Part shown: in pieces, positions 3,203 through 19,842 of the stretch | Layout: each line of letters begins with the position of its first letter | Position numbering within the stretch: the stretch's first letter is position 1 | Assembly (NCBI GenBank): GCA_004802725.1 | Contig: SGPM01000432.1 | Span: 1 to 19,842, forward strand | Direction: 5' to 3' | Length of the DNA stretch: 19,842 nucleotides | Source of the DNA: Antrodiella citrinella | Lineage: Eukaryota > Basidiomycota > Agaricomycetes > Polyporales > Steccherinaceae | Made by a program: the position numbers and the translations under genes | Notes under the pieces: model-generated | Database searches by the model: none | Seen by the model: the letters and a program-made list of their open reading frames with translations, nothing else | Told to the model about the DNA's origin: nothing

Positions 3203-3738
3203 CTTCCGCCCGCCGTCCGAAGGCAAGTTCTCCCGCTCTTGCTATATCTGCACTGTAACGCGCCCTTTTACCGTTGGCCGAATTTGATAATGTTTGCCAG
3301 GGTACTGACTCGAGATCCCTTGCGAAGCCACTCGTAATTACCGCTCGAACACCGTTGTTCGCCGCCGCGCGACATCCGCCTGATTTCACTTGAATGTCTC
3401 ACCTACATATTTCAGATCTGTAAATACAAAGCAATGCAACATGCATAAGTCTTCCTAACGTATGAGCCTCTTTTTCTGTCAAGATACACTACTAGCCAGT
3501 ACAATTGTACACCATTAAGTATTTTTAACCATTCCAAACGAATTTCATTATTACTTCTGCTATCAAAGGTGGCATTCATAAGTACACAGTCCTCAATAGA
3601 TAACAGTTCCGCGTGAATAAGGGAGATATACCTTGTGTCAGTAACAAGATTGAGCAGATTACGTCCCGATCGATCATCGCACTAGTTGCGCTCGTTGTGG
3701 CCGACGACGAGGACTTGCCTTCGGACGGCGGGCGGAAG
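3203..3738. repeat. 26-bp perfect inverted repeat bounding 536 bp
   Basis: Bases 3203-3228 (beginning CTTCCGCCCGCC) are the exact reverse complement of 3713-3738 (beginning ACTTGCCTTCGG). The 484 bp between hold no supported gene. Similarity decays at once outside the 26 bp and I see no clear target-site duplication, so these may be two inverted copies of a dispersed repeat, or the ends of a small non-autonomous transposon. Confidence 0.6.
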
Positions 3739-3745
3739 GGCGGGC

Positions 3746-4750
3746 ATGCATTGAGTGAACCAATGTACATAACAGAACGATGGGCGACAGCCCGCGGGAG
3801 CGGGCCATCAGCACCCGAGCGAACGGACTCCAGAAAAATCGGGAAGACAGAACGAGCGAGGGTGGGATGGGCATAAACTGGAGGGATGGGAGGGACGAAA
3901 ACGTAGAAGTGGAGAACTTCTGCACGTACTTGTCGACTCCTGCTAGTACTATGTATGCTTGCTCCCGTGCTCTAGCTGGTGGGTTGAAAAGGTCTTGGAA
4001 GTTTTTCAGAATCTTCCACTAGGTGCTGAGGTTATGTACTTTGGCTTGATGAATGGGAGGATGGATAGGGAGGAGGATGGCGCAAAGAAGACGGTTCTAC
4101 CGCGGAACGTCGAAGAGGAGAAAGAAGGAGCGCGGCGGCTATTGACGCCCACTGCTCCGTTACATAGACTTAATTCTACGGGACGCTCGTGCCTCGCTCT
4201 CCTTAGACTCGCAATCTATGTACGGAGTGTGCATCAGTAACGCCGCAGAGGTGAACGAAGAACACAATGCATTGAGTGGACCGTAGTACATAACAGAACG
4301 ATGGGCGACAGCCCGCGGGAGCGGGCCATCAGCACCCGAGCGAATGGACTCCAGAAAAACCGGGAAGACAGAACGAGCGAGGGTGGGATGGGCATAAACT
4401 GGAGGGATGGGGGGGACGAAAACGTAGAAGTGGAGAACTTCTGCACGTACTTGTCGACTCCTGCTAGTAGGTATGCTTTCTCCCGGGCTCTAGCTGCTGG
4501 GCCCAAATTTGAAAAGGTCTTCGAAGTTTTTCGGAATCTTCCACTAGGTGCTGAGATTATGTACTTTGGCTTGATGAATGGGAGGATGGATACGGAGGAG
4601 GATGGCGCAAAGAATATGGTTCTACCGCGGATTGCTGGTAGAACGTCGAAGAGGAGAGAGAAGGAGCGCGGCGGCTATTGACGCCCACTGCTCCGTTACA
4701 TAGACTTAATTCTACGGGACGCTCGTGCCTCGCTCTCCTTAGACTCACAA
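3746..4750. repeat. Recent tandem duplication of a roughly 0.5 kb unit (two copies)
   Basis: Copy 1 is 3746-4214 and copy 2 is 4267-4750, a period of about 521 bp. By eye they differ at about 18 substitutions and a few indels: roughly 95% identity, including an 11-bp insertion in copy 2 near 4634 and a 7-8 bp difference near 4503. A 52-bp spacer separates them. Both copies carry open frames on both strands (plus 4301-4681 is 126 codons in copy 2), but indels break the corresponding plus frame in copy 1 and no protein family is recognisable. I therefore treat it as duplicated non-coding or relic DNA, not as two genes. Confidence 0.8.
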
Positions 4751-5034
4751 GCTAACACTCCGATAGTGTTACCTCAGTCTGGAGTATAGAGTACTTTCTT
4801 CATTCAAGAATCCTTCCTCCCGATCACAGGAACATATTAATTAGAGTGTCTGGACTTTCATTACACAAAATACACAGGCCCACAATATACACTGAAGAAG
4901 GCAACATCATGATAAACATATTCAACAGTTCGAGACTCGAGAGGCGGAGAGAAATCGTCTTGAATCAAAATGAGTATGAAACCGTGTCAAACGAGCAGGA
5001 TAGCAGAGGTTCTTAGCGTACATTGGGCAGCTGA
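4751..5034. other. Intergenic, downstream of the P450 gene
   Basis: This is the 3' side of the minus-strand P450. I see no gene, repeat or RNA in it. It presumably contains the P450 transcript end. Confidence 0.4.
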
Positions 5035-11428: not shown

Positions 11429-14400
11429 ATGAGCTCTCTCAGAAATCAGCGAGCGATCATCGCGACCCTCTTCCTCCCTAATACCGCTGTCCTCGGAGAC
11501 TCCGCACCTAGCACCCCTGGAGACCATGTTAGCTCGAATGTACCGTTCAAGGGATCTCATACGCCTACACAGCGTCCGAGCCTTTTGAACAAGCCGGGTC
11601 CGCTGAAAAGTATTGTCGAAGATCTCAAGGACAAGGTGAGTTGCTCATCGTGGATTATGGGAGGAGAAGTGCCGAGGTGCTGCGACTATATCTCCCGACC
11701 CATTCGCCCATACCATATTTATCTGTGACAAAATTTGCTGAACACTTTCGTCCAGTCTCGTGCTGTTAGTCCGGCGATCACTCCACGCCAGGAAAGCAGC
11801 AATCCCTTTAGTTTCCCCGGCCTCACCACCAACACCGTCGTTGGTGGAGCATCCGCCGCTGCCCAATCCCTATTGGACTCTGTCTCGACGGTCATCGGTA
11901 CTAGTGAAGATGGTCAACGGAAGCACCAAACTACTCATAACAACGCCGCTCATGCCCGTGTCCAACGACGAGCTTCGCGGTCTTCCGGTGCTCGGAACGC
12001 ATCCCGGTCGCTTTCTGCAACCCGGCAAGACTCGTACACTCACTCCCAGCCATGGCATGTGGAGAGCAACCCTCACTGCAATGGTGGTCTCAAGAATGCC
12101 TTGGAAAGTGTTCAGGGACGGTTGCGAACTAAGCTTTGGGTAGGAACACTCGGTACGAACACCGATAAGTTCAAGGAGAGCCTGAAGAGGAATATGGAGT
12201 GGAGGATGAGAGAAGAACATGAGAGTTTGCCTGTGTGGATTCCGGACTCTGATTTTGCTGGCTGCTACGACGAGTTCTGCCATCAAGTTGGTCGCTTGTA
12301 CATCTTTCTCAGAGTGCATGATACTCATTTTCGCTCGTTCTACAGGTTCTTTGGCCGTGTCTTCATTATGCCATTCCGGACGCGCCGAAGACCAAATCGT
12401 TCTACGAGTCCGGTTCCTTCAAGCAATACGTAGCTGTCAACCAACGTTTTGCGGACGCCATTGTCTCAACCTACCGCGATGGTGACATCATCTGGGTTAA
12501 CGACTACCACCTGATGCTTCTTCCCTCGATGATTCGCTCCAAACTTCCCAATGCGACCATCGGGTTCTTCATGCACGTCGCATTCCCTTCCTCAGAGATC
12601 TTCCGCTGCCTCTCCGTGCGCAACGAGCTGTTGCACGGTGTGCTTGGTGCGGATTTGATTGGTTTCCAGACGGCGAACTTCGCGCGTCATTTCAGGCAGA
12701 CCGTCAGTCGTATCCTGAGTACCGAGGCGCTGCCTAAGGGTATCCAGATGGAAGACCGCTTTGTGGATGTCGGCGTGTTCCCTATTGGTATTGATGTCAA
12801 GGCATTGACTGAGAAGAGGTCGGTCTTTCGTTCTCTTTGAATCCCCGTCCTGACTGACGACACTACATGTAGGCGTGACCCAGAAGTTACCGAATGGGTA
12901 AAAGTCCTCAGGCAGCGATACGCCGGTATGAAACTCATCGTCGGACGTGACAAGCTTGACGAGATTCAGGTTTGTTTTGATCGAAACATTGTCCTCGTGC
13001 GATACTAACCCTCTTCACTCACAGGGAGTGCGTCACAAACTCCAAGCCTTTGCAAGCTTCCTCGAGAAGCACCCAGAGTACCAGGGCAAGGCGGTACTGA
13101 TCCAGGTAGCCCTTCAGACCACTGAGGAGAATGAGCTACAAGGTGGTGTCTCCGACATCGTCTCGCACATCAACTCTCGCTTCTCTACCCTCACGTACCA
13201 ACCCGTGGTGTTCTTGCATACGCAAGATCTGACGTTCAACCAATACTTGGCGCTGCTGACCGTCGCGGATGCGTTCATGGTGACCAGTTTGAGGGAGGGC
13301 ATGGCATTGAGGACACACGAGTTTGTCGAGTGTCAAGAGGGCCGACACAGGCCATTGATTCTCAGTGAAGTAAGTGTCATTTTTTCCTGGTAACGATATC
13401 GCGGAACTGACCATGGTCTTTGCAGTTCACTGGATCTTACAGCTACAGCGGTTTCCGCTCTTGCATCGCCATTAACCCTTGGGATAAGCGTACCACCGCC
13501 AACGCGATCTACCAAGCTCTCACCATGCCCGATGATGAAGCTCTCTCCCGCTGGGAAGACTTGCATAACCACGTCGTCACACAGTCTGCACAGGCCTTCG
13601 TCACGACTTTCCTGCTCCGCTGCCTTCGCGCCAACCTCTCTCACCAGCCCGACTCGCTCGCCGTTGCGCCTCTTGACGTCAACCTCGTCCTCCCGCGCTA
13701 CAAGCACAGTGATAAGAGGATGATCCTTGTCGACTTTGAGGGAACGCTTTGGAAGCGGGACTTCAATGCCATGCGGGTGATGGCGAAGCCGAACGCGCTT
13801 GACGTATCAAGTGAAGAAGGAATGGGCCTCGGCGGGTTCAATGGTTGGGGTTTCGAAGAGGATATCCTCAAAGTCCTCAAGAAGCTGTCTGAAGACTCCC
13901 GGAACGAGGTCTGGTTGTTGAGCGGTTTGCCCGTCAAGGGTGCGTTGGAGGTGATCGCGAAGGAGGCGCCGAAGGTTGGCATCGTCGCTGAGAATGGATG
14001 CTTCGTCAAGACAAGAGCCACCAGGAGCGGAGAGTCTGCCTGGATGAACATGGTAGCCAACTTCAACTTGACGTGGAAAGTGCCATGTCTGGAAATTCTG
14101 TACTACGTGCGTTCGCATTATTGTCTTGTCTGTCGTTTGGAGACTCACCGGTTGACATTAGTTCACCGAGCGTACACCCAACTCGTTCATCGAAGAGCGC
14201 GAAGCGTCTATCGTCTGGAGGTTCTGGACAGGCGCAATGGACAACTCGTCCTCGGACCGACAATGGGCACGTCGTCAAGCAGCTGAAGCCCAGAACCACA
14301 TCTTCGATAGGTAAGTCTGTTTCTGCAGAGTGTGACGTTAATGTCAGCTAACTTGGTCGTGTACAGTCTTGGTGAACGCTACGGCCTCCGTATCATCCCA

Positions 14401-15035: not shown

Positions 15036-16648
15036 CTACACATCATTTTGCGGCGACGGGGAGGGGGTCACTTGATGCTGCAAAGGCACCTGTCGGCTTA
15101 GTTTCGAAGCCTCGTAATCCTTCTGGTATGCTGCCACATACGGCTACGAACAACAGACACGCAGAAATGAGTAAAAGCCGAGCCGAATTGCTAGTCACAA
15201 GAGTACGAACCGCTTTCTCTTCGTCACTCATCGACCGCCACTTCTGCGCAGCGACACAATGACTCCGTGTGCCTCTTTGTTTAACCCATGTCTTCATGAA
15301 ATCTTTGTAAAACCTGCAGATTTCTTCCTCTCATTAACTTCATAATTTCAAGTATGACTGCGTGAAATCGTTACTCACCTGATATAGGACACTGTTGCTC
15401 TGGGAGGGCATGTTTTCACCTTCCGTCTCAGAAAGGTACCGTTCAATCCACGAACCACGCCGTTGTGCACCATACGCTTATACACTTCGCATTCCTCCCG
15501 GTACTTTGACATAGCAGCCTTATAAACCTCTCGATAAGGCTGTGTGAGGGGAAAAGCTAATAAGCTTCGCCGCCGCAGGAGCACTTCCGGCGAATATGAA
15601 ACTGACCACTTTCTGCTCCTCAGTCAACTCGTTCCATACATCAGCCGCCTTGGCTGTGCCAAACGACTTTGCTCTTGCTTGTTTAAAGATCACGAATACG
15701 GTTGGCGGTCTGCACGGAACGGTGATATTAGAATGATCTTTGATATCTGTATATGAATCTGTCACGCGCCATCCAACACAATATATACGAAAGAACTTAC
15801 ACGTACCTTCAACGATTTTGGTCGCCCTTAAACGCTGTCTTGAACTTTTCAGGTCCATCTTCAACACGCCGGACAGTGTGCCGCTCTGCATCTGGGCAGC
15901 AAACTCTAGTTTCGACGTTTGATATCTCTCCATCTCTGCTTTGAAGGCATCAATGTAGGACTTTACCCCATTGAAGACCGCGCTCATAAGGACCACGGAT
16001 GAAGCAGTGACACGAATAGATAATGTACCTGTTGTTCTTCCTTAGAGAGTGTACTCCATACTTGAGCTGCGCCGGCCACGTTTAGACCTTTTGCTGTAGC
16101 CACTCGCAACAAAGGTCGTCTTGGTTGGCGTGGCAAGGTGAGGCCATACGCTTGGCAATACTCATCTACCAGACGTATATATTCCTTACGCGCAGCCACC
16201 GCTGTGTCAATATATGGCTGTACTCGAGTGCATACTGTGTTAGCGGAGAGTTTGCGTTAGGGTCCAATATACGGAGACCTACCTTCTTCTCCGCTGCGCT
16301 CATCCTTCTCCAGATGACGCCCGCTTCCGAAAATTTTGCCGTGCCCTTCACTCCGTGGCGATCCTGCACAAATAAAAGCCAACCTGATCGCGGTCTCTGG
16401 GGTGGTAGCAATGTCGAACTTGAAGAATTGACGGGTTTCGAATTCAGAGTTGAACTCGCTGTTGATGGCATCTCTGAGATGACCGACTGATTCATATCTC
16501 GTCAAATACTTGCGTGAAGACGGAATGGGAATGGGAAACATACTGTATTGAGCCCTGTTTCGTGACTCGGGGCACTGTGAACGCGTCGATGCGACGCAAA
16601 GCACGCGTTGGCATACCGCGGTCGCGACCCGATCGCAATCCTTAGCAT
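15036..16648 (-). CDS. Mitochondrial HMG-box protein with four HMG boxes, 370 aa, 8 exons
   Basis: Exons: 16648-16544, 16471-16283, 16217-16029, 15960-15803, 15709-15610, 15539-15379, 15313-15211, 15143-15036. The N-terminus MLRIAIGSRPRYANACFASH then RRVHSAP is Arg/Ala/Ser-rich without acids, a typical mitochondrial presequence. Four HMG-box-like units follow: box 1 about 58-120 (PRSGWLLFVQ, IWRRMSAAEKKPYID), box 2 about 128-187 (VWSTLSKEEQQSYIDAFKAE), box 3 about 211-271 (PPTVFVIFKQ, VWNELTEEQKPYREVY), box 4 about 290-352 (KWRSMSDEEKAPYVAAYQ). Each keeps the W...L/M-S-x-E-E-[KQ]-x-[PS]-Y core. By family (Abf2, TFAM) such proteins bind and bend mtDNA; two boxes are usual, four are not. Every box has a phase-0 intron at the same place, just before the P/S-Y. 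An upstream in-frame Met (16684) would lengthen the presequence by 12 residues; I prefer 16648. The exon 2 acceptor (CAGAG at 16476-16472) is chosen by frame. Confidence 0.82.
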
Positions 16649-18099: not shown

Positions 18100-18576
18100 A
18101 TGTCGGATACCATGTCGGTCACCAATCTTCCCCGCATCCGCACCGAATCCGGTAGCAACGACACCCAACCCCGTGCACTGAGCTGCTTCCCCAGCGCCAG
18201 TTCCGCCACATTCTTCTTCGGTCCTTCGATACCTCAACCCGGCAAAGAAGGCGACACTTTGGCCAGCAGTACTTCCGGCAATGCCCATCTCGGCGTTCTC
18301 AGCTATGAGCGGCCCGCCACGACCAGTCGACATTCCTGCGGGGGCAGCCCTTCCTTGTTACCTGGGACCAGTAGCCACGACTCCGAAGATGAGTTCTTAA
18401 TGAGCAACGGTCCCCCGGACACTTCCTTCACGTTCAGTGTCGCTGGCAGCACTCCCAGTCCGCAGAAGCCTCATAGGGAAGAGGTCTCGCCCCTACCCAA
18501 TGAGTTCACGCGGGACTCTGGGATCGCGTTGGAGTCAGGCTCGAGCGTCGATTGTTGTCAGTACTGTTACTGTCAG
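18100..18576 (+). pseudogene. Ser/Pro-rich N-terminal reading frame fused in frame to a glycogen synthase fragment
   Basis: An ATG at 18100 opens a 192-codon frame ending at 18678. Residues 1 to about 159 are low-complexity, Ser/Thr/Pro-rich and predicted disordered (MSDTMSVTNLPRIRTESGSN, later SSATFFFGPSIPQPG and SHDSEDEFLMSN). They do not resemble the glycogen synthase N-terminus, which should carry the UDP-glucose/G6P regulatory GT3 half. From residue 160 the frame runs into glycogen synthase sequence and then through that gene's intron to a stop. I do not recognise the source of the Ser/Pro-rich part; it resembles the disordered N-terminus of a fungal regulatory protein. Most likely a chimeric relic. 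A real short gene whose 3' exons lie elsewhere cannot be excluded. Confidence 0.4.
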
Positions 18577-19842
18577 ATGTTCATCGCTGGGCATTACGAG
18601 TACCGGAACAAGGGTGTTGATATGTTCATCGAGTCCCTTGCGTGTGCGTACCCATTGCTTGTGATCGTGGATGACTGAAGTCATATTGCAATTGAGGTCT
18701 CAACTTCCACCTGAAGAAGGCCAAACATGGCTGACGATAGCATCGAGATCCTGAACCGGATCCGCCGCCGCGTGCAGCTCTTCAACCACTCGTCGGACCG
18801 CGTCAAGATTGTCTTCCACCCTGATTTCTTGAACTCCAATAACCACATCCTTGGACTGGACTACGAGGAGTTTGTGCGTGGATGTCATTTGGGTGTCTTC
18901 CCCAACTACTACGAGCCATGGGGTTACACTCCCGCGGAATGTACAGTGGTACGTCTAGTTTGAGCACGTTCATCGTCGTTCTCAATTTCGGGTCTCTGAC
19001 GTCATCACTCTACTTTTTTTTGGTAGATGGGTATCCTTTAGTGACAACTAACCTCTCCGGCTTCGGGTGCTTCATGCAAGACCTGATTGAACGCCCCGAA
19101 GAAGAGGGGCTGCTACATCATCGACCGACGCTCGCAGTCTGTCGAAGACTCCGTCACCCACCTCACGGAGAACATGTTCACGTTCTGCGCCAAGACGCGC
19201 CGGTAGCGCATCAACTAGCACAACCGCGTCGAGCAGTTGTCGCCCTTGCTCGACTGGAAGAACCTGGAGATCGAGTCGTCGCAAGCGAGGCAGCTGGCGC
19301 TGAGACGGGCGTACCCCGACGCGTTCTGTGGCGCAAATGGGGAAGAGGAGGAAGAGTTTCAGTTCCAGGCTATGGAGAAAAAGAGCCCGAATTTGGTCCC
19401 CCCCCCAAGCCCGAGGTTCAGGATGACGGGTACCGCGACTCCAGGCGATATGGGCACTCTGACGGAAGAGGTACGTTCTCTGACAGTTTCGTTTGATTGT
19501 GATTGAATGCTGACTTTTTACCTTGTTGTCGCAGATGCAAGCACTCAATACTAGCGATTACCGTGGTACGCACTGGGGCGGTGTGACAGAAGAGGACGAG
19601 GAGGAAGGGTACCCATTGTACGTCCCATCATCTACTCTTCTCTCAACCCTCGTCAGGATATTCTGACATGTTCTTTTTTCGTAGCCCGCTGGTGATGAAG
19701 GTCCGCTCACGCGCAAGCTCGATACTGTCTGGTGCGAGCACGCCCGGTGGCGGACGCTCCAAGAGCCTGAGCGAGCACGACCTCCGCAAAGCCGACGCTG
19801 CGCTCAGCCACGTATATCAAGAGGACGGCGTCCCCGTTACGA
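18577..19842 (+). pseudogene. GSY1: Glycogen (starch) synthase pseudogene, C-terminal part only, continues past window end
   Basis: Glycogen synthase (GT3) extends alpha-1,4-glucan chains from UDP-glucose. Segments: 18577-18643 (FIAGHYEYRNKGVD), 18697-18948, 19027-19470, 19535-19617 and 19685-19842, separated by introns of 53, 78, 64 and 67 bp, so this is a genomic, not a retro, copy. Recognisable blocks include [77 protein letters not shown] and SKSLSEHDLRKADAALSHVY. Lesions: the N-terminal half is absent; a deletion near 18720-18728 joins NFHLKKA to MADDSIEIL and shifts the frame; one base is lost near 19036 and one G gained at 19106-19109; TAG stops stand at 19204-19206 and 19216-19218 where CAG (Gln) is expected. 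The last two exons look undamaged. It cannot make an active enzyme. Confidence 0.85.

Follow-up and report, generated by a model that had tools for sequence, protein, structure and literature searches.

The stretch of DNA analysed here, which I will call the window (19,842 nucleotides, contig SGPM01000432.1 of the wood-rotting fungus Antrodiella citrinella, Polyporales, Steccherinaceae), carries on its minus strand a gene at 15036..16648 that encodes four HMG boxes in one spliced frame, and the product is probably a TFAM/Abf2-type protein with an accessory part in shaping mitochondrial DNA and with its boxes in an A-A-A-B layout. It belongs to a fast-turning family found beside a stable two-box gene in the same genome.

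An earlier note made from the letters alone had claimed a single gene with four boxes, and this is borne out by a continuous minus-strand frame that is open only once spliced and runs through eight exons (16648-16544, 16486-16283, 16217-16029, 15960-15807, 15746-15607, 15539-15379, 15313-15211 and 15143-15036) and seven introns of 57-68 nt each. The eight exons of that model stood, while two of its boundaries did not: a donor at 15606 (GTCAGT) suits the intron within box 3 better than one at 15609, with which the intron site would move by one codon, and intron 1 ends at 16487 (AATCAG), adding five residues that align with those of the copies on contigs C72 and C201 and giving a protein of 387 rather than 382 amino acids. 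The 382-residue version was the one used for the Pfam, solved-structure, protein-set and first own-genome searches, as well as for the pairwise identity figures. The HMM search that the note had proposed gives four stretches of Pfam HMG_box (PF00505) on the protein, rather than one or two, at E 3.7e-21. When each box was cut out and scored singly against the Pfam cut-off of 25.4 bits, box 1 (16149..16405, split by phase-0 intron 16282-16218; 37.0 bits), box 3 (15477..15717, shortened and in the box-A position, split by phase-0 intron 15606-15540; 28.6 bits) and box 4 (15087..15407, in the box-B position, split by phase-2 intron 15378-15314 and phase-0 intron 15210-15144; 28.0 bits) passed, and the shortened box 2 (15901..16133, split by phase-0 intron 16028-15961; 20.1 bits) did not. 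For boxes 2 and 3 the match is confined to the second half of the profile. Counted from the first proline to the tryptophan, boxes 1 to 4 span 31, 26, 28 and 35 residues, the boxes of the two-box gene on contig C582 span 37 and 35, and a consensus HMG box spans 39; boxes 2 and 3 may fall short of a full HMG fold. The proteins of the family are basic, with pI values of 9.6-10.0.

Once the exons are joined, all four boxes are seen to be interrupted at an identical site, phase 0 and at the same codon, with M-S-A-A-E-K-K, L-S-K-E-E-Q-Q, L-T-E-E-Q-K-V and M-S-D-E-E-K-A before the introns of boxes 1 to 4 and P-Y, S-Y, P-Y and P-Y after them. The site, which the earlier note had seen in this gene, recurs across the family copies described below: over 13 places, a hand tally finds it in 38 of the 39 boxes for which the junction could be modelled, a frequency that rules out chance, and the sole exception is box 1 of the C109 copy, whose junction was modelled as phase 2. 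The further step of taking the shared intron as evidence that one box had been copied repeatedly did not hold, since in this genome five of the five HMGB-type boxes found outside the family (two in C582, two in a second two-box gene on C427 and the lone box at C201:112018) also carry this phase-0 intron, and these three other genes remove the intron as grounds for internal duplication. By contrast, the site is used in none of the 11 SOX/MATA-type boxes of the genome, seven of which are intronless within the box and four of which carry an intron elsewhere, the nearest miss being C302 with a phase-0 intron that lies four codons upstream in the model. These class labels are the analyst's own and were assigned by motif, which for SOX/MATA boxes is of the RPxNAF...YPxY type and which, judging the alignment by eye, is absent from the four boxes; the set of HMGB-type boxes may also be incomplete, as six-frame searches can overlook boxes cut by introns. 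It follows from this distribution that the intron site is older than the four-box gene and has long marked HMGB-type boxes; such a codon-exact phase-0 intron, marking the HMGB-type boxes found here, may help to sort HMG genes.

Where, then, does the gene belong? The best solved relatives of the four-box protein are TFAM chains (E 1.6e-6), and the two-box gene at C582:2715-1624, a single-copy gene whose public protein (P0001, EUX98_g3715) is 99% identical, has Abf2 as its best PDB match (2.3e-8) with TFAM also among its best solved relatives. The splice sites of C582 are fixed by that public protein and give introns of phases 1, 0, 2 and 0, and introns 4 to 7 of the four-box gene repeat this series of phases. 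The first of this set lies a few residues upstream of a box in both genes and is represented in the four-box gene by intron 4 (15747..15806, phase 1), which separates box 2 from box 3; introns 5, 6 and 7 fall at codons matching those of C582 introns 2, 3 and 4, with C582 introns 2 and 4 and their counterparts at homologous box codons and the third intron of the set interrupting, in each gene, the codon that immediately precedes F-Y-K. Similarly, the box A-linker-box B arrangement of a two-box relative, P0002, is collinear with residues 228-357 of the four-box protein, that is, with boxes 3 and 4 (E 3e-11, as reckoned for this single comparison). The claimed kinship to TFAM and Abf2 is thus upheld by the solved relatives, the intron phases and the collinear match, with weak support from the box trees. 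Overall similarity is faint: C582 as query against its own genome returned no four-box family copy at E <= 1, and the protein of the C366 copy as query reached C582 only at E 0.088. Compared with the two-box TFAM/Abf2 type as represented by C582, the four-box protein shares a presequence-like start, HMGB-type boxes, the box A-linker-box B order in boxes 3 and 4 and the intron phases, and differs in having four boxes instead of two, in being multi-copy and in that faint similarity; the long K/A-rich linker of two-box proteins is also absent from the four-box genes.

The history of the boxes can be followed a little further. The box classes are 21-27% identical to one another and 14-28% identical to the five HMGB-type boxes outside the family, and identity within a class across copies is 35-54%, which places the origin of the box layout before the spread of the family. 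In a tree of 23 rows, box 1 forms one group over the copies (93/96), box 2 forms another (94/98) and box 4 groups with box B of C582 (84/87); in a tree of 37 rows, which adds the boxes of eight C582 relatives (P0001-P0007 and P0014), box 4 of C371 (the gene under study), C201 and C9 joins five of the eight B boxes (95/91), box 4 of C366 stands separately, box B of P0005 falls inside the box-4 group, and boxes 1 to 3 form one group (80/77, weak). Most support values in these trees are low, and constraining box 3 with the A boxes gave p-AU values of 0.24 and 0.16 in the 23-row and 37-row trees, respectively. The phase-2 intron of box B is found, among the four boxes, in box 4 only. The layout favoured by these data, weakly supported as it is, would be A-A-A-B, made of a two-box gene (boxes 3 and 4) with two added A-type boxes. 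A clean duplication of boxes 3 and 4 to give boxes 1 and 2 is disfavoured, as box 2 lacks the phase-2 intron and groups, weakly, with boxes 1 and 3; in its favour, and contrary to the B assignment of box 4, the box-4 profile scores box A of C582 (34.4 bits) above box B (25.7 bits). Extension of a two-box gene by two boxes, perhaps of A type, is better supported than the duplication read from the introns, and an A-A-A-B history would itself still imply an old internal duplication among boxes 1 to 3.

The mitochondrial address is suggested by exon 1 (16544..16648, minus strand), a putative presequence that begins MLRIAIGSRPRYANACFASHRRVHSAPS... and holds five basic and no acidic residues in its first 29, the first acidic residue being at position 30. 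It starts with MLR and includes R-R-V-H-S-A, of which the R-R-V-H-S stretch may resemble fungal presequence cleavage sites. Several copies likewise open with MLR and have an R-R-[VI]-H-like motif, and the N-termini of C201, C72 and C366 are similar to that of the four-box protein, with C72 and C9 carrying an acidic residue at position 10. As a background rate, among 1186 internal 28-residue windows taken from four family proteins, 31 reach five or more basic residues and are free of acidic ones. The presequence claimed in the earlier note is thus plausible, and import of the protein into mitochondria is likely on these features, in a region that together with the linker is unconstrained (pN/pS 0.83-1.02, z -0.1 to 0.8). 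That same lack of conservation speaks for the alternative of a multi-box HMG protein that acts on chromatin and is addressed to the nucleus, or to nucleus and mitochondria both, with the basic N-terminus either incidental or one of two addresses. Multi-box HMG proteins of nuclear type include UBF and the plant three-box proteins, and A. citrinella has its own two-box HMGB-type gene at C427:3715-5112, possibly an Exp1-like protein, which has HMGB-type boxes and the same phase-0 intron in both of them. The C427 model has no presequence-like start and no basic residue in its first 30 (its N-terminal part includes an ambiguous stretch with a stop), so it is without the basic, acid-free start of the four-box protein, whose boxes 3 and 4 match the TFAM type instead. 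Nuclear roles have also been reported or suggested for two other fungal HMG proteins, the dual HmbB of Aspergillus nidulans and mtHMG1 of Podospora anserina (PMC6483251, PMC3730723). Set against the MLR start, the acid-free basic first 29 residues, the R-R-V-H-S stretch and the TFAM-type closest relatives by sequence, chromatin seems to me an unlikely place of work for this protein.

The gene is not alone, a point that the first reading had overlooked in treating it as a lone gene. An own-genome search with three family proteins, followed by spliced alignments, placed the four-box family at 13 places on 12 contigs, within a searched set of 602 contigs and 30.0 Mb from which small contigs and further copies may be missing; the published description of the assembly gives 1228 contigs and 33 Mb for GCA_004802725.1 (PMC12878558). 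The count leaves out small matches at C269, C433 and C365:17275, and C144 was discarded once spliced alignment pointed to a chance match. Three members are intact and full length (C371, C201 and C366), C9 has four boxes with a presequence interrupted by extra sequence and is of doubtful status, seven of the 13 are broken or shortened (C72, which has two boxes before it breaks, and C214, C365, C253, C600, C149 and C109, which are frameshifted, stopped or shortened), and two, C492 and a second copy on C366, run off the ends of their contigs. All seven introns of C201 match those of the four-box gene in place and phase, as do those of C366 save intron 4, which was modelled as phase 0; identity to the four-box protein is 46% for C201, 45% for C9 and 31% for C366. 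The pairs C214/C366 (97% identical) and C365/C253 (98%) could be allelic, given that the culture sequenced was grown from fruit-body pieces (PMC12878558). The 97% match between C214 and C366 begins only about 16 bases before the ATG, so the promoters differ. Carriage of the family by a mobile element was considered and set aside: of 20 flank ORFs scanned at ten copy loci, eight gave a family and 12 none, and the families were malate/lactate dehydrogenase, Nup192, Mis12, Noc2, Chs7, a PH-like domain, a weak ABC match and one hAT piece. The latter is a C-terminal piece of a hAT transposase at L049:1127-1873 (C492), adjoining the family fragment at the contig end. A dispersed repeat of about 106-158 bp, 97-99% identical, also occurs at C149:6066-6223, C600:28980-29137 and C582:4501-4606, and its C149 copy is an insertion inside the broken family member.

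Amino-acid changes are fewer than silent ones between copies. Whole-gene pN/pS is 0.64 for C371-C201 (z 5.3), 0.64 for C371-C9 (z 5.6), 0.72 for C201-C9 (z 3.3) and 0.69 for C371-C366 (z 6.4), and it lies below 1 for every box in all four comparisons, with box-level z values of 0.6 to 5.2, several of them below 2. These ratios, clearly below 1 for the whole gene, and the three unbroken full-length members make it quite doubtful that the family is decaying and without present function, the four-box gene being an unexpressed member among the last to remain unbroken, as could be argued from the seven broken or shortened places, the two cut by contig ends, the doubtful C9 and the return of no public protein for the four-box gene when the two-box protein of the species is public. 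Furthermore, Ion Torrent sequencing is prone to homopolymer indels, and since this is an Ion Torrent assembly (PMC12878558) some of the breaks may be sequencing errors. In a set of 5.8 billion proteins, searched by a method that needs shared 5-letter words, the four-box protein in its 382-residue version found no homologue at E <= 10 and a piece from exon 3 gave no match, while C582 as control query gave 22 matches, the first being its own public protein and several coming from other mushrooms; given the need for shared words, the empty result is weak evidence that homologues are absent. The family was possibly missed or mis-modelled in the AUGUSTUS annotation.

That the family is multi-copy while the two-box gene next to it in the genome is stable points to an accessory role, possibly linked to particular conditions or to conflict, the last step being conjecture. 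One could go on to imagine a lineage-restricted, fast-turnover nuclear family of four-box mtDNA-bridging proteins engaged in nuclear-mitochondrial or mitochondrion-plasmid conflict, for instance in sorting or silencing foreign or selfish mtDNA that arrives via hyphal fusion or mycoparasitism, with the two-box protein keeping the housekeeping duties; I hold this to be improbable. A. citrinella is considered a mycoparasite associated with Fomitopsis pinicola (PMC12878558). That the gene is an artefact in which two adjacent two-box genes were merged is highly improbable, for even though intron 4 stands where the first intron of C582 parts the presequence exon from box A, the exons of boxes 2 and 3 are only a 60-nt intron apart with no presequence exon between them, and the joined plan is also seen in C201, C9, C366 and C214.

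How might an accessory mitochondrial protein with this A-A-A-B layout work? In TFAM, DNA is bent wherever a full box inserts as a wedge into the minor groove, and the A-linker-B pair produces a sharp turn. The four-box protein would be imported and its presequence removed; boxes 3 and 4 would represent a two-box TFAM-like module homologous to C582, with two probably A-type boxes in front. Boxes 1 and 4 would bend the DNA by such wedging, boxes 2 and 3, being shortened, would serve as weaker or auxiliary boxes, and, by analogy with TFAM, the two extra boxes could accommodate another turn or another duplex, such that one molecule might produce several bends or join two duplexes in the nucleoid. 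A multi-copy, four-box version beside a two-box gene would make it possible to test whether the number of boxes sets the bending, bridging and compaction of mtDNA, and, if the reading is true, why a nucleoid protein shows birth and death like a conflict gene is a question open to study.

One article describes the packaging proteins of all nucleoids examined as fast-changing and as having one or two HMG boxes, a description that the four-box protein does not fit, and also gives A. nidulans HmgB two shadow boxes and one canonical box (PMC7463775). In two others, the third HMG box of HmbB and mtHMG1 is a Shadow-HMG-box found across Pezizomycotina (PMC6483251), and mtHMG1, one of 12 HMG genes of P. 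anserina, has a mitochondrial signal (PMC3730723). Compared by description, HmbB and mtHMG1 resemble the four-box protein in having more than two HMG-like domains, some of them degenerate (in the four-box protein the candidates are the shortened, half-matched boxes 2 and 3), and a mitochondrial address, which for the four-box protein is likely, and differ in being ascomycete proteins whose boxes stop at a third. Among the titles and abstract openings of the literature searched, from which subscription papers mostly fell outside, no four-box mitochondrial HMG protein was found; the words 'four HMG-box' occur in a paper on Oxytricha (PMC5312943) and in one on Sox17 (PMC7498262).

In the rest of the window, where the coordinates given for neighbouring genes are the extent of the ORFs with family matches, a trehalose-6-phosphate synthase/phosphatase-type gene (11735..14286, plus strand; PF00982 and PF02358) converges on the four-box gene, and a glycogen-synthase-like gene (18100..19496, plus strand) diverges from it, the latter consisting of two ORFs with PF05693 scores of 26.8 and 26.5 bits that narrowly miss the cut-off of 27. 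A 28-nt perfect inverted repeat at 16-43 and 1319-1346, about 1.3 kb apart, perhaps represents the ends of a small DNA element, and positions 1212-1297 have a 94% match on contig C253. Also present are a 30-nt inverted repeat at 3203-3232 and 3709-3738 (97%, 476 nt apart) and an adjacent direct repeat of about 0.5 kb at 3746-4218 and 4267-4754, the two units of which are 91.7% identical.
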